Positions 43,557 through 63,962 of a stretch of DNA of 64,000 nucleotides are shown piece by piece (the first letter of the stretch is position 1; each line of letters opens with the position of its first letter). Location of the stretch: assembly GCA_027483945.1 (NCBI GenBank), contig JAIXTM010000009.1, positions 62,001 to 126,000 on the forward strand, in the 5' to 3' direction. This DNA comes from Hyphomicrobiales bacterium (lineage in GTDB: Bacteria > Pseudomonadota > Alphaproteobacteria > Rhizobiales > Beijerinckiaceae). A program made the translations under genes and the position numbers. Under the pieces are notes generated by a model. The model was not told where the DNA came from, ran no database searches, and saw only the letters and a program-made list of their open reading frames with translations.

Positions 43557-45757
<2,201 letters not shown>

Positions 45758-45880: not shown

Positions 45881-46381
45881 ATGCCAGAGAAGTTCCCGGA
45901 CCGGCCCGAACCCTTCTGGCGGACCAAGGCCCTCGACTCGATGTCAGACGCGGAGTGGGAAAGCCTGTGCGACGGTTGCGCCCGCTGCTGCCTCGTCAAG
46001 TTGGAGGACGAGGACACCGGCGACGTCCACTACACGGATATCGGGTGCCGTCTGCTGGACGGCGCGTCGTGCCGATGCCGCGATTATCCCAACCGGCAGG
46101 CGCTCGTGCCTGATTGCGTGAAGCTGACGCCGCAGACGGTGAGGGGCCTTGGCTGGCTGCCGCCGACCTGCGCCTACCGGCTGGTGGACGAGGGGAAGGA
46201 CCTGCCCTGGTGGCATCCGCTTGTCTCCGGCAGGCCCGAGACCGTCCACGAGGCCGGCATCTCGGTACGCGACCGCGTCCATGCAGGCGAGGACGATCTC
46301 CCGGCTGAGCACTTCGTCGACCGGCTCGTGCGGTGGCCGATGCGTGCACCGCGCAAGGCCCGCAAGCCGCCGGCGCTCTAG
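45881..46381 (+). CDS. YcgN-family cysteine cluster protein
   Basis: A 166-residue UPF0260/YcgN protein. The family signature [11 protein letters not shown] lies near residue 30, with further cysteines in [20 protein letters not shown] and in PTCAYRL, suggesting metal binding (likely an Fe-S cluster or zinc). Function is unknown. It is divergent from PBP1A. Confidence 0.9.
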
Positions 46382-52393: not shown

Positions 52394-53059
52394 ATGCCCC
52401 GAAACCTCACGGACGAACGCGCCGCCGCCCTGGCGCGCGCGCAGCTTCTGGCCGAGACCACGGACCTGACCTGGAGCGCGCTCAGCCGCATTGTCGGCGT
52501 GCCGCGCTCGACGATCTACCGGATCGCGAAGGCGGAGGGCTGGGCCAAGGTGCCGAGCCGCTTCGACCTCGCGCTTGCGGAGGCGGCGGCGAGGCTGGCG
52601 GAGGCCAAGGCCGCCACCCTTGTCGCGGTGGCGTCCGGGGCCGCGCCGGCCGATCCGGCCGCGCTTCATGAGCCATCGCCCTTTGAGCGATCGCCCCACG
52701 GAACGCCGCATCCCTCGTTCCGCACGCCGCGCGACCATGCGGCCCTGGTGAAGCGCCTGTGGCGCGCCGCCACCCGCCAGGTCGGCGAGATCGAGCGGGA
52801 CCTTGCCGGCCGCGACATCGCGCTCGCCGACCGGGAGCGGGTCAGCCGCACGCTGGCGAGCGTGGTGAAGACGGTGCAGGAGCTGAGGAAGATCGATGAC
52901 GAACAGCGCGCCGCAAGCCTCGCCGCTCCTTCCAGCTCCGCCGCTCCCGCCGAGCCCGCCAGCCCCGCCGAGCCCGCTCCCGGAAGCCCCGGCGACCGGG
53001 ATCTCCGACGCCGCCTTGCGGAGCGGATTGCTGCGTTTGGCGGAAGAGGGCGATCCTGA
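52394..53059 (+). CDS. GTA small terminase subunit-like protein (gp1)
   Basis: A 221-residue protein. An N-terminal helix-turn-helix (SALSRIVGVPRSTIYRIAKAEGW) is followed by a helical core (LVKRLWRAATRQVGEIERDL, then SRTLASVVKTVQELRKIDDE), as in the gp1/TerS proteins of alphaproteobacterial gene transfer agents that select DNA for packaging. The C-terminal 50 residues are Ala/Pro-rich and overlap the large terminase gene by 164 bases if the upstream start is used. First gene of the GTA cluster. Confidence 0.85.
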   Translation: MPRNLTDERAAALARAQLLAETTDLTWSALSRIVGVPRSTIYRIAKAEGWAKVPSRFDLALAEAAARLAEAKAATLVAVASGAAPADPAALHEPSPFERSPHGTPHPSFRTPRDHAALVKRLWRAATRQVGEIERDLAGRDIALADRERVSRTLASVVKTVQELRKIDDEQRAASLAAPSSSAAPAEPASPAEPAPGSPGDRDLRRRLAERIAAFGGRGRS

Positions 53060-54323
53060 GGGCTTCCTCGACGGGATGCCGGCGGACCTGCAGCATTTCG
53101 CCGAGCGGACCTGGGGCCTCTGGCGCCACGATTACCAGGCGCCGCCGCCGGGCGACTGGACGATCTGGCTGATCCTGGGCGGCCGCGGCGCGGGCAAGAC
53201 GCGCGCCGGGGCCGAATGGGTGAGGGCGCTCGCCACCGGCTGCGATCCCCTCGTGCCGAAGGCCGGGCGCATCGCCCTTGTCGGGGAGACGATGGCGGAT
53301 GTGCGCGAGGTGATGATCGAGGGGCCTTCGGGCCTGCTCGCCGTCCACCGCGCCGTCCGCCCGGTCTGGCTGCCCTCGCGGCGGCGGCTCGAATGGCCGA
53401 ACGGGGCCGTGGCGCTCGCCTTCTCGGCGGAGGACCCGGAGGCCCTGCGCGGCCCGCAATTCGACGCCGCCTGGGCCGACGAGATCGGCAAGTGGCGCCA
53501 CGCGGAAGCCGCCTGGGACCAGCTGCAATTCGCCCTGCGGCTGGGGGAGCGGCCGCGGGAGCTGGTGACGACGACGCCGCGCGCAATGCCGCTGCTGAAG
53601 CGGCTCCTCGCCGACCCGAACGTGGCGGTGACGCGGGCCCGCACGGCGCAGAACGCCTTCCACCTGGCGCCGGCCTTCCTCCACGCCGTGGTCGGCCGCT
53701 ATGCCGGCACGCGCCTCGGCCGGCAGGAGCTGGACGGGGAGATGGTGGAGGAGCGCGCCGACGCGCTCTGGACGCGCGCCCTCATCGAGGCCGGGCGCCG
53801 GGAGGCGGCGCCCTCCCTCGCCCGGATCGTCGTGGCGGTGGACCCGCCGGTGACGTCGGGGCGCCGGGCCGATGCCTGCGGCATCGTCGCGGCGGGGATC
53901 GACGGGGACGGCCATGTGCACGTGCTCGCCGACGCCACGGTCTCGGGCTTGAGGCCCGCGGGGTGGGCTGAGGCCGCCATCGCGCTCTACCGGCGGCTGG
54001 AGGCGGACGCCCTCGTCGTCGAGGTGAACCAGGGCGGCGAGATGGCGGGCGCCGTCATCGCCGAGACCGACCCGTCCGTGCCGGTGACGCCGGTGCGGGC
54101 GAGCCGGGGCAAGTATCTGCGGGCCGAGCCCGTCGCCGCGCTCTACGAGCAGGGCCGGGTCAGCCATTGCGGGGCCTTCCCCGCGCTCGAGGACGAGATG
54201 TGCGATTTCAGCCCGGGCGGGCTTTCCAGCGGCCGCTCGCCGGACCGGCTCGACGCGCTGGTCTGGGCGGTGGCGCATCTGGCGCTCGCCCCGAAGGCCC
54301 GGCCGCGCGTCCGGGCGCTCTGA
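52896..54323 (+). CDS. GTA large terminase (gp2)
   Basis: A 475-residue packaging motor. Walker A is GGRGAGKTRAGAEW, Walker B is in FDAAWADEIGKW, and the RNase H-like nuclease starts at VVAVDPPVTSGRRADACGIV, with the later acid near the C-terminus (SPDRLDALVWA). It packages about one gene-length of host DNA into GTA heads. The proline-rich N-terminus (52896-53075) overlaps the small terminase; an internal ATG at 53076 would still keep the ATPase but loses upstream adenine-binding residues. Confidence 0.93.
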   Translation: MTNSAPQASPLLPAPPLPPSPPAPPSPLPEAPATGISDAALRSGLLRLAEEGDPEGFLDGMPADLQHFAERTWGLWRHDYQAPPPGDWTIWLILGGRGAGKTRAGAEWVRALATGCDPLVPKAGRIALVGETMADVREVMIEGPSGLLAVHRAVRPVWLPSRRRLEWPNGAVALAFSAEDPEALRGPQFDAAWADEIGKWRHAEAAWDQLQFALRLGERPRELVTTTPRAMPLLKRLLADPNVAVTRARTAQNAFHLAPAFLHAVVGRYAGTRLGRQELDGEMVEERADALWTRALIEAGRREAAPSLARIVVAVDPPVTSGRRADACGIVAAGIDGDGHVHVLADATVSGLRPAGWAEAAIALYRRLEADALVVEVNQGGEMAGAVIAETDPSVPVTPVRASRGKYLRAEPVAALYEQGRVSHCGAFPALEDEMCDFSPGGLSSGRSPDRLDALVWAVAHLALAPKARPRVRAL

Positions 54324-54347
54324 CCGCTCCACCACGAGGACATCATC

Positions 54348-55529
54348 ATGCTGCACCTTCTCGCCCGCCTGGCGGGCCGATCCCGCGCGCCTGCCATCGA
54401 GGTGAAGCGCTCCCGCACCGGGCCGGCGCTGGCGCTCTATTCCGGCGGAAGGCCGGTCTGGTCGCCGCGCGATTACGGCTCGATGGCGCGGGAGGCGTGC
54501 CAGCGCAACGCCATCGCCTATCGCTGCGTGCGGCTGGTGGCGGAGGCGGCGGCGACGCTGCCCCTGACACTCCTCGAAGGCGAAGCGGAGCTGACCGAGC
54601 ATCCGCTGCTGGCGCTGCTCGCCCGGCCGAACCCGCGCAGCGGGGGCCAGGCCTTCCTGGAGACGCTCTACGGCCATCTCATGGTGGCGGGGAACGCCTA
54701 TATGGAGGCCGCCGCCATCGACGGCGTGCCGCGCGAGCTCCACGCGCTGCGGCCCGACCGGATGCGTGTCGTGCCCGGCGCCGATGGCTGGGCGCAGGCC
54801 TACGAGTACCAGGTCGGCGCGCAGGTCGTGCGCTTCCCGCAAGCGGAGGCGCTGCCGCCGATCCTGCACCTGACATTGTTCAACCCGCTGGACGACCATT
54901 ACGGCCAGGCCCCGCTGGAGGCGGCGCATCTGGCGCTCGACATCCACAACGCGGCCTCGGCCTGGAACAAGGCGCTGCTGGACAACGCCGCCCGGCCCTC
55001 CGGCGCGCTGGTCTACGGGGCGGGGGAGGCGGCCTCCCTCACCGACAGCCAGTTCGACCGGCTGAAGGAGGAGCTGGAGGCGAGCTTCCAGGGCGCCGCC
55101 AATGCCGGCCGGCCGCTGCTGCTGGATGGCGGGCTCGACTGGAAGCCCCTGTCGCTGACGCCGAAGGACATGGATTTCATCGAGGCCAAGGCCGCTGCCG
55201 CGCGGGAGATCGCCCTCGCCTTCGGCGTGCCGCCGCTGCTGCTCGGGCTCTCCGGCGACAACACCCACGCCAATTACGCCGAGGCCAACCGGGCCTTCTA
55301 CCGCCAGACGATCATCCCGCTCGTGCGCCGCACGATGGGCGAGGTCGCCGCCTGGCTCTCGCCCGCCTACGGGGCGGCGCTCCGGCTGGAGCCGGACCTC
55401 GACGCCGTCGAGGCGCTGGCCGGCGAGCGGGAATCGCTGTGGCGCCGCGTCATCGCCGCGCCCTTCCTCACCGATGCGGAAAAGCGGGTCGCCGTCGGCT
55501 ACGGCGCCGACCCCAAGGAGGACACGTGA
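54348..55529 (+). CDS. GTA portal protein (gp3)
   Basis: A 393-residue HK97-type portal, the dodecameric channel at the head vertex. CQRNAIAYRCVRLVAEAAATL near residue 60, NPRSGGQAFLETLYGHLMVAGNAY and the late FGVPPLLLGLSGDNTHANYAEANRAFY are family blocks. Its stop overlaps the next micro-ORF (GTGA). Confidence 0.93.
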   Translation: MLHLLARLAGRSRAPAIEVKRSRTGPALALYSGGRPVWSPRDYGSMAREACQRNAIAYRCVRLVAEAAATLPLTLLEGEAELTEHPLLALLARPNPRSGGQAFLETLYGHLMVAGNAYMEAAAIDGVPRELHALRPDRMRVVPGADGWAQAYEYQVGAQVVRFPQAEALPPILHLTLFNPLDDHYGQAPLEAAHLALDIHNAASAWNKALLDNAARPSGALVYGAGEAASLTDSQFDRLKEELEASFQGAANAGRPLLLDGGLDWKPLSLTPKDMDFIEAKAAAAREIALAFGVPPLLLGLSGDNTHANYAEANRAFYRQTIIPLVRRTMGEVAAWLSPAYGAALRLEPDLDAVEALAGERESLWRRVIAAPFLTDAEKRVAVGYGADPKEDT

Positions 55530-55717
55530 AGGACATCCTGGACGTCTTCATCGCCCGCGGGGACCTGGCGCATCTCGCTTTGTTCCTGTGGGCCACGGCC
55601 GCCTCCGGGGCGGCCTTCACCGGGCTGCGCGAGCTCGTGGCGGCGAACCGCCGCTTCGACGAGTTCGTCCGCGAGCTCAGCCAGTTCAACCGCCGCTACT
55701 CGGGAGACGACGCATGA
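55526..55717 (+). CDS. GTA small membrane protein (gp3.5-like)
   Basis: A 63-residue protein starting at GTG, coupled to the portal stop. A single hydrophobic helix (LALFLWATAASGAAFTG) is followed by a charged tail. Small proteins are found at this position in GTA clusters (ORF g3.5), but the role is unknown. Its stop overlaps the next ATG (ATGA). Confidence 0.75.
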   Translation: MKDILDVFIARGDLAHLALFLWATAASGAAFTGLRELVAANRRFDEFVRELSQFNRRYSGDDA

Positions 55718-55881
55718 TCAAGCGCGCCACCGGCCGGATCGCCCGGCCCGATCCGCGAAGCCGGCCCGGCCCGCCGCCAGCCGACGTGTTCCGCGCCTTC
55801 GTGCGCAACCTGGAGCGGCTGGACGGCGTCCAGCGCCGCCCCTCCGATGCCGGGCCTTCCGGCGGGGAGGGTGGGCGATGA
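55714..55881 (+). CDS. GTA-associated micro-ORF
   Basis: A 55-residue basic, proline-rich protein (PADVFRAFVRNLERLDGVQRR is the helical core). It has ATGA overlaps at both ends, with the preceding micro-ORF and the protease gene, which supports real translation. No family recognised. Confidence 0.6.
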   Translation: MIKRATGRIARPDPRSRPGPPPADVFRAFVRNLERLDGVQRRPSDAGPSGGEGGR

Positions 55882-56417
55882 GGAACGCTCCGGTCGAGGT
55901 GAAATACCTCGCCAACGCCTTCGGCGGCGTCGAGCCGGACGGCACGTTCGAGGGCTATGCCAGCCTCTTCAACGAGCCCGATCTCGGCAAGGACGTCGTC
56001 ATGCCCGGCGCCTTCGCGGCGAGCCTGAAGCGCCGCGGCGCCGGCGGCATCCGCATGCTCTGGCAGCACGACCCGGCCGAGCCGATCGGCGTCTGGCTCG
56101 CGGTGCAGGAGGACGCGAAGGGCCTCAAGGTCCGCGGCCGGCTGAACCTCGCCGTCGCCCGGGCGCGGGAGGTGCTCGCCCTGATGCGCGAGGGCGCGGT
56201 GGACGGCCTGTCCATCGGGTTCCGCGTCGACAAGGCGAGGGCCGAGCCGCGCGGCGGCCTGCGCCGCCTCCACGCGGTGGATCTCTGGGAGATCTCCATC
56301 GTGACCTTCCCGCTCCTGCCGGCGGCGCGCGTCAGCACCGTCAAGGGCGGGCCCGCCGCGCCGGACGCCCGGCTCGCCGCCGCCATCGAACGGGCCGCCG
56401 CGTCCCTGCGCGGCTGA
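55878..56417 (+). CDS. GTA prohead protease (gp4)
   Basis: A 179-residue HK97-type prohead protease (herpesvirus-protease fold) that trims the capsid scaffold. LWQHDPAEPIGVW gives the catalytic histidine and VDGLSIGFRV the serine; DLWEISIVTFPLLPAARV is the conserved C-terminal block. Downstream lies the capsid gene. Confidence 0.93.
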   Translation: MRNAPVEVKYLANAFGGVEPDGTFEGYASLFNEPDLGKDVVMPGAFAASLKRRGAGGIRMLWQHDPAEPIGVWLAVQEDAKGLKVRGRLNLAVARAREVLALMREGAVDGLSIGFRVDKARAEPRGGLRRLHAVDLWEISIVTFPLLPAARVSTVKGGPAAPDARLAAAIERAAASLRG

Positions 56418-56471
56418 CCGCCTTTTTCGCCTGTCGTTTTGAACCCTTTTCCATGAACCGAAGGATTGCCC

Positions 56472-57737
56472 ATGACCAAGCGCATCGCCCGCACCGAACT
56501 GCCCCACAGCGACACCGCGCCCGAAACCAAGGCCGCCGGCGGCGACATTGCCGGCGCGTTCGAGGATTTCTCCCGCGCCTTCGAGGCTTTCAAGGAGACC
56601 AACGACAACCGCATCGCCGCGCTGGAGACGCGCGGCGCCGTCGATGTGGTGACTGAGGAGAAGCTCGCCCGCATCGACGCCGCGCTCGACGCCGCCCAGG
56701 CGCGGGTCGAGCGGCTGACCCTCGATCGCGCCCGCCCCGCCTTGGGAGGCGCGGCGCCCGCCGGGGAGGGCGAGCACAAGGCCGCCTTCGCGGCCTATGT
56801 CCGCGCCGGCGAGGCCCATGGCCTCAAGGACCTGGAGGTCAAGGCGCTCTCCGCCGGCTCCGGCCCGGATGGCGGCTATCTCGTGCCCGCCCAGGTGGAG
56901 ACCGAGATCCTGCGCCGCCTCTCGCTGGCCTCGCCGATCCGCGCCATCGCCTCGGTGCGCAGCGTCTCCTCGGGCAGCTACCGCAAGGCCTATTCCACGA
57001 CCGGCCCGGCCGCCGGCTGGGTCGGCGAGACCGCGCCGCGGCCGCAGACCGCGAGCCAGGCCCTCGCCGAGCTCTCCTTCCCGGCCATGGAGCTCTATGC
57101 CATGCCCGCCGCCACGCAGGCGCTCCTGGACGACGCCGTCGTCGACATCGACGCCTGGATCGCCGAGGAGGTGGAGCAGGCCTTCGCCGAGCAGGAAAGC
57201 GCCGCCTTCGTCAACGGCGACGGCATCAACAAGCCCCGCGGCTTCCTCGATTATGACACGGTCGCCAACGGCGTCTGGGAATGGGGCAAGATCGGCACGG
57301 TCGCGACCGGCGCCGCCGGCGCCTTCCCGGCCGCCAATCCCAGCGACGTGCTGGTCGACCTCGTCTATGCGCTCAAGGCCGGCTACCGCCAGAACGGCAC
57401 CTTCGTGATGAACCGCAAGACCCAGTCGGCGGTGCGCAAGTTCAAGGACGCAGCCGGCCATTATCTCTGGCAGCCGCCGGCCGCGATCGGCCAGCCGGCC
57501 ACGCTGATGTCCTTCCCGCTGGTGGAGGCGGAGGAGATGCCCGATATCGGCGCCGGCAGCCTCTCGGTCGCCTTCGGCGATTTCCGCCGCGGCTATCTGG
57601 TGGTGGACCGCCAGGGCGTGCGCGTCCTGCGCGATCCCTTCACCGCCAAGCCCTACGTGCTGTTCTACACGACCAAGCGCGTCGGCGGCGGCGTCCAGGA
57701 TTTCGACGCGATCAAGCTCCTGACATTCGCCGCCTGA
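56472..57737 (+). CDS. GTA major capsid protein (gp5)
   Basis: A 421-residue HK97-fold capsid protein. The N-terminal 100 residues form a coiled scaffold domain (the delta domain, removed by the protease); the mature coat starts near SAGSGPDGGYLVPAQVE. NKPRGFLDYDTV and the last block VLFYTTKRVGGGVQDFDAIK are typical. ATG at 56472; a TTG at 56466 is less likely. Confidence 0.95.
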   Translation: MTKRIARTELPHSDTAPETKAAGGDIAGAFEDFSRAFEAFKETNDNRIAALETRGAVDVVTEEKLARIDAALDAAQARVERLTLDRARPALGGAAPAGEGEHKAAFAAYVRAGEAHGLKDLEVKALSAGSGPDGGYLVPAQVETEILRRLSLASPIRAIASVRSVSSGSYRKAYSTTGPAAGWVGETAPRPQTASQALAELSFPAMELYAMPAATQALLDDAVVDIDAWIAEEVEQAFAEQESAAFVNGDGINKPRGFLDYDTVANGVWEWGKIGTVATGAAGAFPAANPSDVLVDLVYALKAGYRQNGTFVMNRKTQSAVRKFKDAAGHYLWQPPAAIGQPATLMSFPLVEAEEMPDIGAGSLSVAFGDFRRGYLVVDRQGVRVLRDPFTAKPYVLFYTTKRVGGGVQDFDAIKLLTFAA

Positions 57738-57741
57738 CCGA

Positions 57742-57757
57742 CGGGCGAATGCGCCCG
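57742..57757 (+). other. Hairpin between capsid and the convergent protease genes
   Basis: CGGGCG-AATG-CGCCCG, a perfect 6-base-pair stem five bases after the capsid stop. No T run follows on either strand, so it is not a classical terminator, but it could attenuate GTA transcription or protect the capsid mRNA 3' end. Confidence 0.4.
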
Positions 57758-57764
57758 CCGCGGG

Positions 57765-58616
57765 CTAGCGCGCGTTCCCGGCCGGATCCGGCCCGACGGG
57801 GACGACGCTCCGCGGCGGGGCTGCCCAGGGCGGGGGCATGGCCCGCGCCCGGGAGGCCTGCGCCCCGCCGAGCCGCACCAAAGTCGCCCGCGTATGCGCC
57901 TCGCGCAGCGGCATCGGCGTCGCCGCCGTGATGCCCCGGCACAGGGCGCCTTCGCCCAGATCCACGACCCAAGACACGATGCCGACCAGCACCGGGTCCT
58001 CGCCCTCCGCCACGATCGGCCCGCCGGAATCCCCGACGCAGGCCGACACGTCGCTGCGCCCGATCTCGCCGCGCTCCGACAGGAGCATGGTGGACGGGTC
58101 GTGACCGATGACGCGCAGCGTCGCCTTGCGCAGCTGCCCGGCGCTGGTGCGGTCGCCGAAGCGCGAGACGCCGAAGCCCGCGATGGTCAGCGCCCGCCGC
58201 TCGGCCAGCATGTCCAGCGAGCCGGCGATGCGGATCGGCCGCATGTCGGGGGGCAGCGGCGCCTTCAGCCGCACGATGCCGATATCGGAGCCGTTGCGCG
58301 GCAGGAGCGAGACGCTCATGCGGAACTGGGGGTTGCGCCAGCTCTGCTCGGCGGGAAATTCCCGCGGCCGGAACTGCGGATCGAGCGCCATGACGTAGAG
58401 GGCCTTGCCCCGCACCAGGCAATGGGCGGCGGTCATGACCAGCGTCGGGGAGACGACGACGCCCGAGCAGATCTCGCCCTTGGCGTTCATGATGCCGACC
58501 GTGTAGCTGCGCGGCCCGTCCGGGTCGGTCGCGGCCGATCCGCCGACGATGGCGGAAGCGGGACCGGGCAGGACGGACGCGGAGAGGGCGAGGGCGGCAA
58601 GGACGCGGCGAAGCAT
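57765..58616 (-). CDS. Secreted chymotrypsin-fold serine protease, inserted in the GTA cluster
   Basis: A 283-residue S1 protease. The triad is H in TAAHC, D in SDIGIVRL and S in CVGDSGGP; the C42-C58 disulfide pair is present. The S1 pocket reads S189-A190 (trypsin numbering), so a chymotrypsin-like rather than trypsin-like preference is expected. A signal peptide ends GPASA immediately before IVGG, so the mature N-terminus would already be the activated form. The tail after about residue 240 is Pro/Arg-rich. It runs against the GTA genes. Confidence 0.9.
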   Translation of the reverse strand: MLRRVLAALALSASVLPGPASAIVGGSAATDPDGPRSYTVGIMNAKGEICSGVVVSPTLVMTAAHCLVRGKALYVMALDPQFRPREFPAEQSWRNPQFRMSVSLLPRNGSDIGIVRLKAPLPPDMRPIRIAGSLDMLAERRALTIAGFGVSRFGDRTSAGQLRKATLRVIGHDPSTMLLSERGEIGRSDVSACVGDSGGPIVAEGEDPVLVGIVSWVVDLGEGALCRGITAATPMPLREAHTRATLVRLGGAQASRARAMPPPWAAPPRSVVPVGPDPAGNAR

Positions 58617-58672
58617 GTGCCGATGATTGCGGATGCGCGGGCGGCCGTAAAGTGGCCCGCCGTCGCGGCGTC

Positions 58673-59410
58673 TCACCGCATCCAGTCCGCCTGCCGTCCC
58701 CATCCCGCTAGCGTGCGGTCGATCCAGCCCTTCTGGGGGGCCACCAGGACGCCCTGGGTGAGGCCGCCGCAGCCCTTGCCCGCGCCGCCGCTGGCGAAGG
58801 CGGTCACGGCGACGATGCCGTCCGAGCCCGCGCGGGTCATCGGACCGCCGGAATCACCCTGGCAGGCGCCGGAGCCGGGCCGTGAGGCCCAGATCAGGAT
58901 CGTGCCGGGGCCGTAGGGCTCCACCACCGGGATCGAGGCGGCCCTGAGCCTGCCGGTCGTGCGCGCCTCGCCCTCGCGGGTGACGCCGTAGCCGAGGATG
59001 TCGAGCGTCTCGCCCGCCCGGGGCATGGCGCCGGCATCGAGGCTGGCGGGGACAAAGCGCGCCGGCAGCGGCGAAGGCAGGCGCACCAGCATCATGTCCA
59101 CGGAGCGGCTGCGCGTCTGCGCGGCGCCGGCCACATAGGCCGGGTGCCGCGCGATCTGGCGGGGCTCGATCAGGACCGGCTCGCCCTCGTTCCAATGGAT
59201 GCGCAGCGAGGCAGCCGACGAGCCGCAATGGCCGGCGGTCAGCACGACGTCCTGCGCCACCACGATCCCCGAACAGACGCCGCCCCGGTCGCTCAGCACC
59301 ATCAGCGTCGAGCGCGCCAGCCGCGTCGTCTCCGCTCCGCCCACGATGGCGGCGGCGGGCGTCGCGCCGAGTGCGGCGGCGAGGACGGACAGCAACAGCG
59401 TGATGCGCAT
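58673..59410 (-). CDS. Second secreted chymotrypsin-fold serine protease
   Basis: A 245-residue S1 protease upstream of the first in the same direction. The triad is H in TAGHC, D in SVDMMLVRL and S in CQGDSGGP, with the C42-C58 pair. The signal peptide ends PAAA before IVGG. The pocket position 189 is glycine, suggesting small-residue preference. Only 56 bases separate it from the other protease; the pair look like a tandem duplication. Confidence 0.9.
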   Translation of the reverse strand: MRITLLLSVLAAALGATPAAAIVGGAETTRLARSTLMVLSDRGGVCSGIVVAQDVVLTAGHCGSSAASLRIHWNEGEPVLIEPRQIARHPAYVAGAAQTRSRSVDMMLVRLPSPLPARFVPASLDAGAMPRAGETLDILGYGVTREGEARTTGRLRAASIPVVEPYGPGTILIWASRPGSGACQGDSGGPMTRAGSDGIVAVTAFASGGAGKGCGGLTQGVLVAPQKGWIDRTLAGWGRQADWMR

Positions 59411-59498
59411 GACGGGCCGGGGGCAGGGCGATCGGGACCCCGTCTGTAGCCCCGCGCCGCCCACGCCCGCAAGCGAACCCGAACGAAGGAGGCGACCC

Positions 59499-60068
59499 AT
59501 GAATCCCATTCCGCTCGAGGGACCCGGTGCCGAACCGGTGACCCTGGCCGAGCTCAAGGCCTATCTGCGCCTCGACGGCGACGAGGAGGACGCGCTGCTC
59601 GCCTCCCTCGGGAAGGCGGCCCGGCTCCTGGTGGAGGCCCATGCCGGGCGCATCACCACGATTCAGACGTGGCGCCTCGTCCTCGATGCCTGGCCCTGCG
59701 GGGGCGTCCTGCGGGTGCCGCTCGCCCCGCTGCGCGCCATCCTCGCCGCCCGCCTCATCGACGCCGATGGCGGGGCGGCGCCGCTGGCGTCGGACGCCCT
59801 CGTGCTCGATGCGGCGAGCGAGCCCGCCCGCATCCGGGTGAAGGACGGGACGCCCGCGCCGGGCTCGCCCCTCAACGGCATCGAGATCGACGTCTCGGTC
59901 GGCTACGGCCCGGCGCCCGGGGACGTGCCGGAGCCCCTGCGCGAGGCGATCCGCGCGCTCGCCGCGCGCTGGTTCGAGCAGCGGGGCGAGGCCCACCTGC
60001 AGGAACCGCCACGCCTGCCGCCGGAGATCGCGGCCCTGGTCGGGCCCTATCGCCGGGTGCGGCTGTGA
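59499..60068 (+). CDS. GTA head-tail connector protein (gp6-like)
   Basis: A 189-residue head-tail connector of the phage gp6/phiE125 gp8 group. The N-terminal helical part (VTLAELKAYLRLDGDEEDALLASLGKAARLLVEAH) and IEIDVSVGYGP are family blocks. AAGGAGG precedes the ATG. It resumes the GTA order after the protease insertion. Confidence 0.92.
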   Translation: MNPIPLEGPGAEPVTLAELKAYLRLDGDEEDALLASLGKAARLLVEAHAGRITTIQTWRLVLDAWPCGGVLRVPLAPLRAILAARLIDADGGAAPLASDALVLDAASEPARIRVKDGTPAPGSPLNGIEIDVSVGYGPAPGDVPEPLREAIRALAARWFEQRGEAHLQEPPRLPPEIAALVGPYRRVRL

Positions 60069-60406
60069 CCGCGCCCCGAAAGCCCGCGCCGCCGGGGGCC
60101 CTGCGCACCCGCTTCGTCCTGGAGGCGCCGGTGGAGACGCCGGACGATGCGGGCGGCGTTGTCCGCGTCTTCGCATCCGCCGGCGCCGTCTGGGCCGCTC
60201 TGGCGCGCCTCTCGGGCTCGGAAGGCTGGGAGGCGGACCGGGAGGCCCAGACGCTGAACTGGCGTGCCGAAATCCGCTTCCGCGCCGGGATCGATGCCGG
60301 CATGCGCCTGCGCCGCGGCACGCGCATCCTCGACATCCTGTCCGTCGCCGATCCCGACGGGCGGCGGCGCCGCCTCGTCCTCGATTGCCGGGAGACCGCG
60401 CCATGA
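60065..60406 (+). CDS. GTA head closure protein (gp7-like)
   Basis: A 113-residue protein of the phage head closure/adaptor group. The start is a GTG coupled to the gp6 stop. LEAPVETPDDAGGVVRVF and EIRFRAGIDAGMRLRRGTRILDIL are the family blocks. It seals the head-tail interface. Confidence 0.9.
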   Translation: MTAPRKPAPPGALRTRFVLEAPVETPDDAGGVVRVFASAGAVWAALARLSGSEGWEADREAQTLNWRAEIRFRAGIDAGMRLRRGTRILDILSVADPDGRRRRLVLDCRETAP

Positions 60407-60816
60407 CCGCTTCAGCGCTCCTCGCCCTGCGCGAGGCCGTCCAGGCCCGTCTCAAGGCCGACGCGCCGCTCGCCGGGCTGATGGGCGGCGAGGTGCGGCT
60501 CCACGACGAGCCGCCCCGTGCCGCCCGCGATCTCTATGCCGTCTGGGGCGAGGCGTCCGCGCGGGACTGGTCGACCGGGTCGGGCACCGGGGCGCAGCAC
60601 GCCTTCTCCATCGCGATCTGGTCGGTGGAGGGCAGCGCGCGCCCCGCGCTCGCCGCCGCCGCCCGCATGGCGGCGATCCTCCACGAGGCGGCCCTGGCGC
60701 CGGCCGGCCACCGGCTCGTGACGCTGCGCGCCGCCGCGGCCGAGACTGCCCGCGACCGGGCGAGCGGACGCGTCCGCGTCGTCCTGCGCTTCACCGCGCT
60801 CACCGAAACCGATTGA
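60403..60816 (+). CDS. GTA DUF3168 protein (gp8-like)
   Basis: A 137-residue tail terminator-type protein of the DUF3168 family. LREAVQARLKADAPLAGLMGG opens it and the ATG overlaps the gp7 stop (ATGA). Confidence 0.9.
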   Translation: MTASALLALREAVQARLKADAPLAGLMGGEVRLHDEPPRAARDLYAVWGEASARDWSTGSGTGAQHAFSIAIWSVEGSARPALAAAARMAAILHEAALAPAGHRLVTLRAAAAETARDRASGRVRVVLRFTALTETD

Positions 60817-60832
60817 TCAGAGGAGAGAGATG

Positions 60833-61246
60833 ATGGGCGCTCAGAAGGGCAAGGACCTCTTGCTGAAGCTCGACGACGGGACGGGGCTCTTCGTCACCGT
60901 CGCGGGGCTTCGGGCGCGGCAGATCGCGCTCAACGCCGAGACGGTGGACATCACCCATGCCGAATCCGCCGGCCGCTGGCGCGAATTGCTGGCCGGGGCG
61001 GGCGTGCGCCGCGCCGCCGTCACGGGCTCGGGCGTCTTCCGCGACGGCCAGTCCGACGCGGAGCTGCGGGAGATGTTCTTCGAGGGCGCGATCCGGCCCT
61101 GGCAGGTCGTCGTGCCGGATTTCGGCACGATCGAGGGCCCGTTCCAGATCGTCTCCCTCGACTATCGCGGGGACCATGCCGCCGAGCTGACCTTCGAGAT
61201 CAGCGTGGAATCGGCCGGCCCGCTCGCCTTCGCCGCGACGCCCTGA
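60833..61246 (+). CDS. GTA major tail protein (gp9)
   Basis: A 137-residue TP901-1-type tail tube protein. AQKGKDLLLKLDDG, IALNAETVDITHAES and FEGAIRPWQVVVPDFGTIEGPFQI are typical. Two adjacent ATGs exist (60830 and 60833); AGGAG spacing favours 60833. Confidence 0.93.
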   Translation: MGAQKGKDLLLKLDDGTGLFVTVAGLRARQIALNAETVDITHAESAGRWRELLAGAGVRRAAVTGSGVFRDGQSDAELREMFFEGAIRPWQVVVPDFGTIEGPFQIVSLDYRGDHAAELTFEISVESAGPLAFAATP

Positions 61247-61256
61247 GGAGGATGCC

Positions 61257-61583
61257 ATGGCCAACCGCCATCGCGGCGAGATCCGCGCCACCTTCGGGGA
61301 CAGGAGCTTCACCCTGTGCCTGACCCTCGGGGCGCTGGCCGAGCTGGAGGACGCGTTCGGCGTCGCCGACCTGCCGGCCCTGGGCGAGCGCTTCGCCACC
61401 GGGCGCCTCTCGGCGCGGGACCTGATGCGCATCCTCGGCGCGGGCCTGCGCGGGGCAGGCAACGCGCTCTCCGACGAGGACGTCGCCGCGCTGCCGCTCG
61501 CGGGCGGCCTCGGGGCGCTCGCCGCCACGGTCGGGGAACTCCTCGCCGCCACCTTCGGCGGGGAGGGCGACCGCGACCCTTGA
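61257..61583 (+). CDS. GTA tail assembly chaperone (gp10-like)
   Basis: A 108-residue protein of the gene transfer agent gp10 family. LCLTLGALAELEDAFGV and DLMRILGAGLRGAG are characteristic. It precedes a second small chaperone ORF, the arrangement used for tail tape measure assembly. Confidence 0.9.
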   Translation: MANRHRGEIRATFGDRSFTLCLTLGALAELEDAFGVADLPALGERFATGRLSARDLMRILGAGLRGAGNALSDEDVAALPLAGGLGALAATVGELLAATFGGEGDRDP

Positions 61584-61804
61584 GTGCCGCAGGCGCCGGC
61601 CCGGCCCGTCCCTTCCCCTGGCGGGAGGCGATGCATCTGGGCCTCGGCCGCCTGCGGCTCTCCCCCGACGCCTTCTGGCGCATGACCCCGCGCGAACTGG
61701 CGGCGGCGCTCGCCGCGCCGTCCGCCCCGCCCATGGACCGCGCCGCGCTCGCCGCCCTGATGCGCCGCTTCCCGGATCGGCCCGGTCCGTCCCCTTGCGA
61801 TTGA
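61580..61804 (+). CDS. GTA tail assembly protein, rcc01693-like (gp10.1)
   Basis: A 74-residue protein. The block FPWREAMHLGLGRLRLSPDAFWRMTPRELA is the family signature. The only in-frame start before it is a TTG at 61580 that overlaps the gp10 stop. Function in tail assembly is inferred from position. Confidence 0.8.
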   Translation: MSAAGAGPARPFPWREAMHLGLGRLRLSPDAFWRMTPRELAAALAAPSAPPMDRAALAALMRRFPDRPGPSPCD

Positions 61805-61814
61805 GGAGCACCCG

Positions 61815-62402
61815 ATGTTCGAGCCCGCCGAAACCAGCGCCGACCTGCAGATGAGCCGGCAGGACCTGCAGGACCTGACCCGGCTCTCCCGCCAGTTCGG
61901 CGTCTCACTCTCCGACGCCTTCGCCCGCGGCGTCGCCGGCGGGCGCAGCCTGTCGGACACGCTCCAGGGCCTCGGCCAGCGCCTGTCGCAGCTCGCTTTG
62001 CGCAGCGCGTTCAAGCCGCTGGAGACCATGTTCAGCCAGAGCATCGAGAGCCTGGCGAAGGCGGTCTCGGGCGCCGGGACGACGATCGCCAGCGCCCGCG
62101 GCAACGTGCTGGCGGGCGGGCGCATCGTGCCCTTCGCCGCCGGCGGCGTCGTCGCGGCGCCGACCTATTTTCCCATGGGCCGCGACACGGGCCTGATGGG
62201 CGAGGCCGGGCCGGAGGCGATCATGCCGCTGAGCCGCGGCGCCGACGGCCGGCTCGGCGTGCGCGCCAGCGGCGCCGCGCAGCGCCCGGTCAGCGTCACG
62301 GTGACGATCGCGACGCCGGACGCCGAGAGCTTCCGCCGCTCGGAGGCGCAGGTCGCCGCGACCCTCGCCCGCGCCGTGGCGCGTGGCCAGCGCGCGCTCT
62401 GA
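61815..62402 (+). CDS. GTA tape measure protein (gp11)
   Basis: A 195-residue tape measure protein, short as in Rhodobacter GTA, which has a short tail. GLMGEAGPEAIMPLSRG is the phage tape measure C-terminal motif, preceded by a helical region and the small hydrophobic VVAAPTYFPM. It fixes tail length. Confidence 0.93.
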   Translation: MFEPAETSADLQMSRQDLQDLTRLSRQFGVSLSDAFARGVAGGRSLSDTLQGLGQRLSQLALRSAFKPLETMFSQSIESLAKAVSGAGTTIASARGNVLAGGRIVPFAAGGVVAAPTYFPMGRDTGLMGEAGPEAIMPLSRGADGRLGVRASGAAQRPVSVTVTIATPDAESFRRSEAQVAATLARAVARGQRAL

Positions 62403-62412
62403 GGGCTCATCC

Positions 62413-63054
62413 ATGGCCGCCTTCCACGAGATCCGCTTTCCGGTCGACATCGCGCTGGGCAGCCGGGGCGGGCCGACGCGCCTGACCCAGGTCGTCACGC
62501 TCGCCTCGGGGCGCGAGACCCGCAACGCGCGCTGGGCCCATTCCCGCCGCCGCTACGATGCCGGCTACGGGATTAAGACCCTCGACGCGCTGCATCAGGT
62601 CGTCGCCTTCTTCGAGGAGCGGCGCGGACGGCTCCACGGCTTCCGCTGGCGCGACCGGCTCGACTGCCAGTCCTGCGCGCCCTCGGCCGCGCCGACGCCG
62701 CTCGACCAGGTGCTGGGGGAGGGCGACGGCATCCGCACCGCCTTCCAGCTCACGAGGACCTATGGCGGCGCCCATGCGCCCTACCGGCGGGATATCGTGA
62801 AGCCCGTCGCGGGCACCGTGCGGGTGGCGGTCGCCGGAACGGAGGCGGTCGCGGGGCTCGCCTTCGAATGCGACCCGGCGACGGGCATCGTCGCATTCCT
62901 GCCCGGCCACGTGCCTGCGCCGGGCGCGGCCGTCACGGCCGGCTTCCAGTTCGACGTGCCGGTCCGGTTCGACACCGACGCCCTCGACATCGACCTCTCG
63001 GCCTTCGCGGCCGGGGCCATCCCCTCGATCCCGCTGATCGAAATCCTGCCCTGA
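62413..63054 (+). CDS. GTA DUF2460 protein (gp12)
   Basis: A 213-residue distal tail protein. FPVDIALGSRGGPTR, RRYDAGYGIKTLDALHQVVAFFEERRGRLHGFRWRDR and the end SIPLIEILP are family blocks. In Rhodobacter GTA, gp12 forms the ring at the tail end. Confidence 0.93.
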   Translation: MAAFHEIRFPVDIALGSRGGPTRLTQVVTLASGRETRNARWAHSRRRYDAGYGIKTLDALHQVVAFFEERRGRLHGFRWRDRLDCQSCAPSAAPTPLDQVLGEGDGIRTAFQLTRTYGGAHAPYRRDIVKPVAGTVRVAVAGTEAVAGLAFECDPATGIVAFLPGHVPAPGAAVTAGFQFDVPVRFDTDALDIDLSAFAAGAIPSIPLIEILP

Positions 63055-63065
63055 GGACTCAAGCC

Positions 63066-63962
63066 ATGCGCACGATCGATCCTGCGCTCGCCGCGCACCT
63101 TGCCGGCGGGACGACGACCCTGTGCCGCTGCTGGCGGCTGATCCGCGCCGACGGCGCCGTCCTCGGCTTCACCGACCATGACCGCGACCTCGTCTTCGGC
63201 GGCACGACCTTCCGCGCCGCGACGGGGCTGGAGGCCGCGGAAGCCACCGCCGAACTCGGCTTCGCGATCGGCGGCGGCGAGGTCGCCGGCGCGCTCTCCG
63301 ATGCCGGCCTCACCGAGGAGGACCTGGCGGGCGGGCTCTACGACAATGCTCGCGTCGAGACCTGGGCCGTGAACTGGCAGGATGTCGGCCAGCGGCTCCT
63401 TCTCGATATCGGCTCGGTCGGCGAGGTGCGCCGGGGCGACGGCGCCTTCGTCGCCGAGTTGCGGGGCCTTGCCCACCGCCTCGACGAGGAGCGCGGCCGC
63501 GTCTATGCCGCGACCTGTTCCGCCGATCTCGGCGACGCCCGCTGCGGCATCGACCTGGCGCTCCCCGCCTGGCTCGGCACGGGCAGCGTGACGGCGGGCG
63601 ACGGTCGCGGCAGCCTTGTCGCCGCGGGGCTCGGCGCCTTCGCCGACGGGTTCTTCACCGGCGGGCGCCTGACCTGGACCTCCGGCGCCAATGCGGGCCG
63701 CAGCGTCGCCGTGCAGACCCATGGCGTGGACGGGGCGGGCGCCGCGACGCTCGCGCTCTGGGAGCCGGCGGCGTCCCCGATCGCGCCGGGCGACGCCTTC
63801 GGCGTGACCGCCGGCTGCGACAAGACCTTCGCCACCTGCCGCGCCCGCTTCGGCAACGGCGCCAATTTCCGCGGCTTCCCGCACATGCCGGGCAACGACG
63901 TGATGATCCGCTATGCCCGCGAGGGGCAGGCGGGCTTCGACGGCGGGAGCCTCGCCGGATGA
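63066..63962 (+). CDS. GTA DUF2163 hub protein (gp13)
   Basis: A 298-residue baseplate hub protein. Four cysteines, C151, C160, C251 and C258, have the same within-pair spacings (9 and 7) as the iron-sulfur ligands of phage lambda gpL as I recall them, and the end CRARFGNGANFRGFPHMPGND is the gpL-like C-terminal motif. An Fe-S cluster is therefore likely. It is followed immediately by the NlpC/P60 gene (ATGA). Confidence 0.92.
   Translation: MRTIDPALAAHLAGGTTTLCRCWRLIRADGAVLGFTDHDRDLVFGGTTFRAATGLEAAEATAELGFAIGGGEVAGALSDAGLTEEDLAGGLYDNARVETWAVNWQDVGQRLLLDIGSVGEVRRGDGAFVAELRGLAHRLDEERGRVYAATCSADLGDARCGIDLALPAWLGTGSVTAGDGRGSLVAAGLGAFADGFFTGGRLTWTSGANAGRSVAVQTHGVDGAGAATLALWEPAASPIAPGDAFGVTAGCDKTFATCRARFGNGANFRGFPHMPGNDVMIRYAREGQAGFDGGSLAG

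Follow-up and report, generated by a model that had tools for sequence, protein, structure and literature searches.

Two putatively exported serine proteases lodged in a gene transfer agent cluster, probably an independent unit serving the host

A gene transfer agent (GTA) cluster is usually presented as a set of particle genes with their regulators; clusters of the RcGTA-like type encode a terminase, portal, prohead protease, capsid, connector and tail. In phages, independent genes inserted in operons are known as morons. Trypsin-like serine peptidases have been connected with GTAs in Caulobacter crescentus: according to the part of the LypABC report available to us (PMC13236601), the trypsin-like peptidases LypA and LypC are needed for GTA release, and their effect persists when the core GTA cluster is deleted, so that they are not encoded within it; they are multidomain components of a CARD-NLR-like system. 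Bacterial secreted proteases of the S1A (chymotrypsin-fold) family, such as the trypsin of Saccharopolyspora erythraea (PDB 5dk1), combine this fold and its catalytic triad with cysteines 42-58 and 191-220 and an export signal.

The locus described here departs from each of these. The window, a stretch of 64,000 nucleotides (positions 62001-126000 of contig C11 of a 3.1-Mb genome), holds an RcGTA-like cluster with the same components in the same gene order, with the difference that an extra pair of antisense genes for S1A proteases, A and B, stands between capsid and connector. Unlike LypA and LypC, these are single-domain proteins with predicted signal peptides and are encoded inside the cluster. 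They share the fold, triad, cysteines and export signal of the secreted S1A enzymes but lack Asp189, carry a signal-peptidase site directly before residue 16 that would leave no propeptide, and are encoded in a GTA cluster. The pair resembles the morons of phages in forming a unit that lies within a structural operon but has no demonstrated part in the particle, and differs from them in that it sits in a domesticated element, has been retained over several families and is left in place when the element is lost. We propose, with a probability of about 0.78, that it is an independent unit of exported, self-activating, host-serving serine proteases lodged in the GTA cluster.

No paper on a trypsin-like gene within a GTA cluster surfaced in the gene-transfer-agent literature searched with the terms trypsin or serine protease, Methylobacterium, Rhizobiales, Beijerinckiaceae and moron, a scope that leaves out subscription papers and preprints. 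The matches listed for RcGTA with a trypsin-like peptidase insertion include no such gene, the portions of PMC9836097, PMC11409702, PMC7360931 and PMC9765227 that were available mention none in a GTA cluster, and a search for secreted trypsin-like serine proteases in Methylobacterium returned nothing.

The protease pair within the cluster

A sequence-only reading of this DNA had placed two chymotrypsin-fold proteases antisense within the GTA, between capsid and connector, and both the coordinates and the PF00089 matches confirm this (Table 1). The genes are tightly packed: 56 bases separate B from A, 27 bases lie between the end of the capsid gene and the end of A, and the starts of B and the connector are 88 bases apart. 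The right-hand set of flanking genes starts about 5 kb past the end of the window.

Table 1. Coordinates of the protease genes, the surrounding GTA genes and the left flank in the window
Feature	Coordinates	Strand	Evidence
Protease A, 283-aa serine protease of the S1A (chymotrypsin-fold) family, predicted to be exported; S189; second of the pair	57765..58616	-	PF00089 E 1.9e-23
Protease B, 245-aa serine protease of the S1A family, predicted to be exported; G189; first of the pair	58673..59410	-	PF00089 E 1.6e-20
88-bp divergent intergenic region between B and connector, presumed promoter region of the pair	59411..59498	.	sequence
GTA major capsid protein, left neighbour	56466..57737	+	PF05065 E 6.7e-92, TIGR01554
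GTA head-tail connector, gp6-like, right neighbour	59499..60068	+	TIGR02215 E 3.1e-51, PF05135
GTA terminase, portal, prohead protease	52896..56417	+	PF03237/PF17289, PF04860, PF04586
GTA tail genes, reaching nearly to the end of the window	60385..63962	+	PF11367, PF06199, TIGR02217, TIGR02218
Left flank of the GTA locus: PBP1A-like gene	43580-45697	-	tblastn of flank families; Pfam of family members
Left flank of the GTA locus: CxxCxxCC (YkgJ-like) gene	45890-46363	+	tblastn of flank families; Pfam of family members

Both proteins show the PF00089 match and the His57, Asp102 and Ser195 that define the S1A family; trypsin-type Pfam domains are the only ones found in them, with no CARD, NLR or endonuclease domain, and their NCBIfam matches all fall far below the cut-off. 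The AlphaFold model of B (mean pLDDT 87) adopts the double beta-barrel fold, and its best PDB matches are chymases, cathepsin G and granzymes at Z 25-26 (for 2rdl_A, Z 26.3, rmsd 2.2 and 202 aligned residues); a profile of B likewise retrieves S1A enzymes from the PDB. In these comparisons residue 22 of B, the Ile of IVGG, aligns to residue 16 of chymotrypsin and of the chymases, cathepsin G and granzymes. We aligned 83 A and B proteins, 48 labelled as in a GTA and 35 as orphan (the latter including two, from G063 and G100, that keep tail genes beside the protease), with one broken copy left out. H57, D102, D194 and S195 are present in all 83, bearing out the intact triads described earlier for the window. 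The further claim, that a signal-peptidase site directly precedes IVGG, also stands as a sequence motif: 72 rows allow a judgement and 11 do not, and an AxA-type site abuts residue 16 in 71 of the former. The motif supports direct activation of A and B by signal peptidase through a predicted cleavage just before residue 16, whose freed N terminus would pair with Asp194. As that reading had it, position 189 is Ser in A and Gly in B; across the 83 rows it is G, S, A or Q, with Gly in most and Asp in none, so the Asp189 that gives trypsin proper its Arg/Lys specificity is found in neither protein. The S1 pocket would be open in B and narrower in A, given S189 and V216.

Around the pair, a scan of positions 57700-59600 for a sigma-70 consensus found no promoter, and folding of the convergent gene ends did no better than shuffles, with no terminator found. 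Words enriched upstream of B were considered as a shared motif and rejected, being read as antisense coding sequence of the connector, and no upstream motif is common to all genera. Eight aligned Bosea loci (L162, L164-L169, L171) keep GGTT and GCGCTAT upstream of B, with or without a GTA. Elsewhere in the genome, three more trypsin-family genes lie at C5:15470, C11:137996 and C17:396648, the second of which overlaps a DegP-like gene beside the Ccm genes on the right-hand side of the GTA. Another gp12-like tail protein (45 percent) is encoded at C6:137963-138547 and suggests a prophage.

Conservation of the place and GTAs that lack the pair

A homologue of B was recovered, using protein B as the query, from 188 of 248 genomes of the window's family (f1, including Bosea, Methylobacterium and Chelatococcus), all at least 90 percent complete. 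The capsid was searched for in 172 of these 188 at E 1e-60, the other 16 being placed by local mapping of GTA genes. It was matched in 122 (43 of 80, 69 of 80 and 10 of 12), in 120 of which (110 of 112 in one set and 10 of 10 in another) B lies on the opposite strand directly downstream of the capsid, within 8 kb; in the 16 mapped genomes capsid and connector stand on either side of B. The exceptions in placement are G216, with a capsid match of 43 percent on another contig, and G247, with the two genes 14 kb apart. Counted over family genomes with both B and a GTA-type capsid, B is antisense and directly downstream of the capsid in 136 of 137; hence, the insertion is conserved in related GTA clusters, and the pair is not scattered over unrelated positions in most relatives. 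A-type copies occur in a subset of relatives: in the set of 112, the gap from capsid to B has a median of 916 bases, which gives room for A, and 49 gaps are below 300 bases, which do not. Named examples with the gene in place come from Bosea, Methylobacterium (our genus g9, one member of which, G009, matches Methylobacterium sp. W2 at 92 percent DNA identity), Microvirga, Chelatococcus, Enterovirga and Alsobacter, and, under Xanthobacteraceae-type names, from Ancylobacter rudongensis and strain 501b.

Across the order, 239 genomes were searched by profile; 42 gave matches, from five families. The place inside the GTA cluster is conserved in three families (f1, f20 and f35). Six of the eight loci read in f20 adjoin GTA genes; the other two (G432 and G480) do not, and their genomes have no capsid match. 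The five loci of f48, the family of Labrys sp. WJW, all adjoin the flank genes and not GTA genes. Of the f35 copies, that of G322 stands between connector and capsid and that of G456 next to the connector, with six beside neither; these six, all of genus g77, have no GTA or flank genes within 1.5 kb, and because of this the homologue may have moved there or be a paralogue. Only weaker matches came from f34. For nine other families of the order, one genome each was mapped in which both genes could be placed; none has a protease between the two, and to that extent the remark that standard GTAs have none held.

Other genes were seen at the capsid-connector joint in four loci (L197, L238, L258, L060), encoding ferritin-like (Dps-type), low-molecular-weight phosphatase, acyltransferase and DUF6968 proteins. 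A protein with RP-rich, RWIRPDA-like repeats lies between protease and capsid in L236, L255, L257 and L258, with a YNPNQPRVPAG-like motif in three of the four; its versions from L236 and L255 have no Pfam match.

The strongest competitor of our proposal is an accessory role, in which the exported proteases would help lysis of the producer and particle release, or open the recipient surface for uptake. It draws on the place conserved in f1, f20 and f35, on the presence of B in all tested GTA-bearing genomes of the family outside one clade, and on the requirement for LypA and LypC in Caulobacter GTA release, as given in the available part of PMC13236601. Against this, the same text describes multidomain proteins not encoded in the core GTA cluster, the pair runs opposite to the GTA operon, and it is absent both from one clade with a GTA-type capsid and from the GTAs of the nine other families. 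It thus lacks the general presence across GTA clusters of an RcGTA-like structural component. Together with the intact copies under purifying selection in GTA-less genomes described below, this makes the accessory role unlikely.

The clade in question emerges from the 60 family genomes without B, 24 of which, all in genera g18 and g66, have a GTA-type capsid at 65-68 percent identity; a 25th case, G147, has its GTA-type capsid split, and the remaining 35 lack the capsid or show weaker matches only. The connector follows the capsid by 70-161 bases in 19 of the 20 such capsid loci that were read, the twentieth ending before the connector, and in one genome (G018) the whole GTA cluster was mapped. 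A GTA-bearing clade without the protease suggests that the GTA does not need it. Overall, B is missing from 24 of the 161 family genomes with a GTA-type capsid, all in one clade, versus 35 of the 86 without (both counts excluding G147). The presence of B hence does correlate with the GTA in the family; physical linkage explains the correlation without being proved by it, and function could explain it too.

Proteases without a GTA

The converse also occurs: no capsid was found at E 1e-60 in 50 of the 188 B genomes (37 of 80, 11 of 80 and 2 of 12). Six of these (G023, G031, G063, G100, G241 and G256) keep tail genes beside B and are partial clusters or assembly gaps; in G023 and G031 the connector is beside B, with no capsid there and no capsid match in the genome. 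With five fragmented g29 drafts set aside, 39 remain that neither partial clusters nor drafts explain. We searched these 39, along with G241 and G256, for the gp12 tail protein, all three controls scoring: 32 of the 41 had none, seven had one elsewhere only and two had one beside B. A particle made from another locus is possible in the seven because of that gp12-like gene, and likewise in Labrys sp. WJW and Methylobacterium platani because of a distant capsid match (49 and 43 percent, respectively) away from the protease locus; these two are the only ones with a capsid match among the genomes of 11 additional named-species loci, and G216 gives the same match as the M. platani genome. A missing capsid can be an assembly gap in draft genomes, an objection to which the single-contig genomes G010, G096, G197, G215 and G223 are less open.

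We read 36 GTA-less loci, 15 of them named (four of these being the same contigs as others in the set), on 32 distinct contigs, for up to about 10 kb per side (shorter at contig ends) and saw no GTA gene within the stretch read. Nevertheless, in 35 of them the neighbours include a flank gene of the GTA clusters of relatives, on both sides in 13 (10 distinct contigs) and on one side in 22. The flank sets comprise PBP1A and CxxCxxCC genes on one side and a response regulator, a histidine kinase, and CcmI or CcmF on the other. Genes of these sets likewise adjoin the GTA of the window, those of G026 and G015 on both sides, and those of Bosea G012 and Methylobacterium G009 on the right. The remaining locus, L156, is not convincingly flanked, its lone response-regulator match lying 5.5 kb off on the wrong side. 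The one-sided evidence is weak in five Methylobacterium loci (L141, L181, L195, L206 and L237), where it rests on the histidine kinase: in G009 a relative of this kinase, 79 percent identical, borders the GTA, the response regulator there reaches only about 50 percent and is missing from L237, and wider stretches of G223 and G009 have nothing else in common beyond kinase and regulator. The clearest case of a protease left behind is G202, both of whose flanks align with its congener G026, the cluster being gone and the protease alone left between them. Labrys sp. KNU-23 has B and A between both flanks and no capsid match; Bosea OK403 and B. psychrotolerans, also with B and A and no capsid match, still align with GTA-bearing Bosea in the region just upstream of B. 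Two further loci show other states. L190 has the response regulator, B, A and only a remnant of the capsid, with the tail side gone and no full capsid in the genome, and looks like an intermediate, a half-eroded GTA; in the GTA-less L152 (G064), B is broken into two frames and is likely a pseudogene.

The B tree (85 proteins, 36 from orphan copies) requires at least 11 changes between the two labels, at least eight of them forced by well-supported branches, versus 27-28 with shuffled labels (A rows, G025b, G054, G054b and L152 were left out, and G063 and G100 were labelled as keeping GTA genes). Orphans group with in-GTA genes of their own genus in g26, g28, Bosea, Methylobacterium and g54 of f20. 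As a gene tree it counts switches and not their direction; that the direction is loss of the GTA we infer from the flanks. The dN/dS of A or B genes (NG86) is 0.10-0.25 in six GTA-less pairs and 0.09-0.18 in three in-GTA pairs, so orphan copies remain under purifying selection; it is 0.27-0.41 in three mixed pairs of a GTA-bearing and a GTA-less genome, which may reflect relaxed or changed selection after GTA loss. The protease thus stays without its GTA neighbours, keeps its active site and shows low dN/dS, from which we conclude that it has a use of its own.

Database searches bear on where else the pair may belong. A phage origin was considered, but 50,697 phage records gave no match to the proteases and PHROGs at best E 0.058, for A. 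Of 40 loci from IMG/VR, 21 (L241-L261) have RcGTA-like genes adjoining the protease, and viral collections hence seem to hold misfiled GTAs; the other 19, weaker matches (E 2e-9 to 3e-4), have no GTA genes beside the protease.

A second alternative puts the proteases on the recipient side: in cells not making GTA they would trim surface proteins, acting on phages, GTA particles or their receptors as a defence or a gate on uptake; in producers the antisense GTA transcript would silence both genes, a lowering of expression that the antisense layout would permit; and GTA-less lineages would keep the gate as particles of relatives, and phages, still arrive. This would explain both the location and the retention after GTA loss. 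However, the defence libraries returned weak, generic matches only (LmuA at E 1.9e-4 for A, Avs1b at E 8.5e-4 for B), and none of ten annotated neighbour proteins is a known defence protein; we regard this scenario as improbable. Least credible is neutral hitch-hiking on a conserved operon, for although physical linkage by itself keeps gene order and one copy (L152) is broken, the catalytic residues of all 83 aligned copies, the low dN/dS of GTA-less pairs and survival where no GTA gene remains beside the protease speak strongly against it.

A proposed host-serving unit inside a GTA cluster

The association between GTA and protease breaks in both directions, as an independent host function predicts. 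Where the sequence-only reading left a choice between help in particle release or entry and an independent cassette, the cassette is hence the better supported, and the GTA role the less so. Briefly, we advance the following course of events. The insertion would predate the split of the families, and the GTA would then have been lost around the protease unit many times. The proteases would be exported by the Sec route, and removal of the signal peptide at AxA|IVGG would directly free Ile16, so that no propeptide or second protease would be needed. Judged from the pocket residues, B, with G189 and an open pocket, would cut extracytoplasmic proteins after large hydrophobic residues, and A, with S189 and V216, after small ones. 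Their role would lie in nutrition or envelope upkeep, an assignment we make with modest confidence because, leaving aside the flank genes and a gene family present in three g28 loci, we saw no neighbour specific to the orphan copies.

Why, then, is the unit found so regularly at one place? Other genes are also found at the capsid-connector joint, such as the ferritin-like (Dps-type) gene of Methylobacterium fujisawaense, and these GTA clusters may have a general slot for insertions there. The pair would keep its position because insertions are tolerated at this joint and because it is transcribed in a direction of its own; the conserved place would then be an inherited position, perhaps helped by the insertion-tolerant joint.

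Thus, clusters usually regarded as particle genes and regulators here carry, over several families, a seemingly unrelated unit inside them, which cautions against assigning GTA function by position and explains the protease on some of the "viral" contigs of IMG/VR. The enzymes are also compact, and signal peptidase alone may suffice to activate them. Finally, the particle genes appear to have been deleted in nature again and again while the unit stayed, which amounts to a natural experiment by which the selected parts of a GTA cluster can be told from those that merely reside there.
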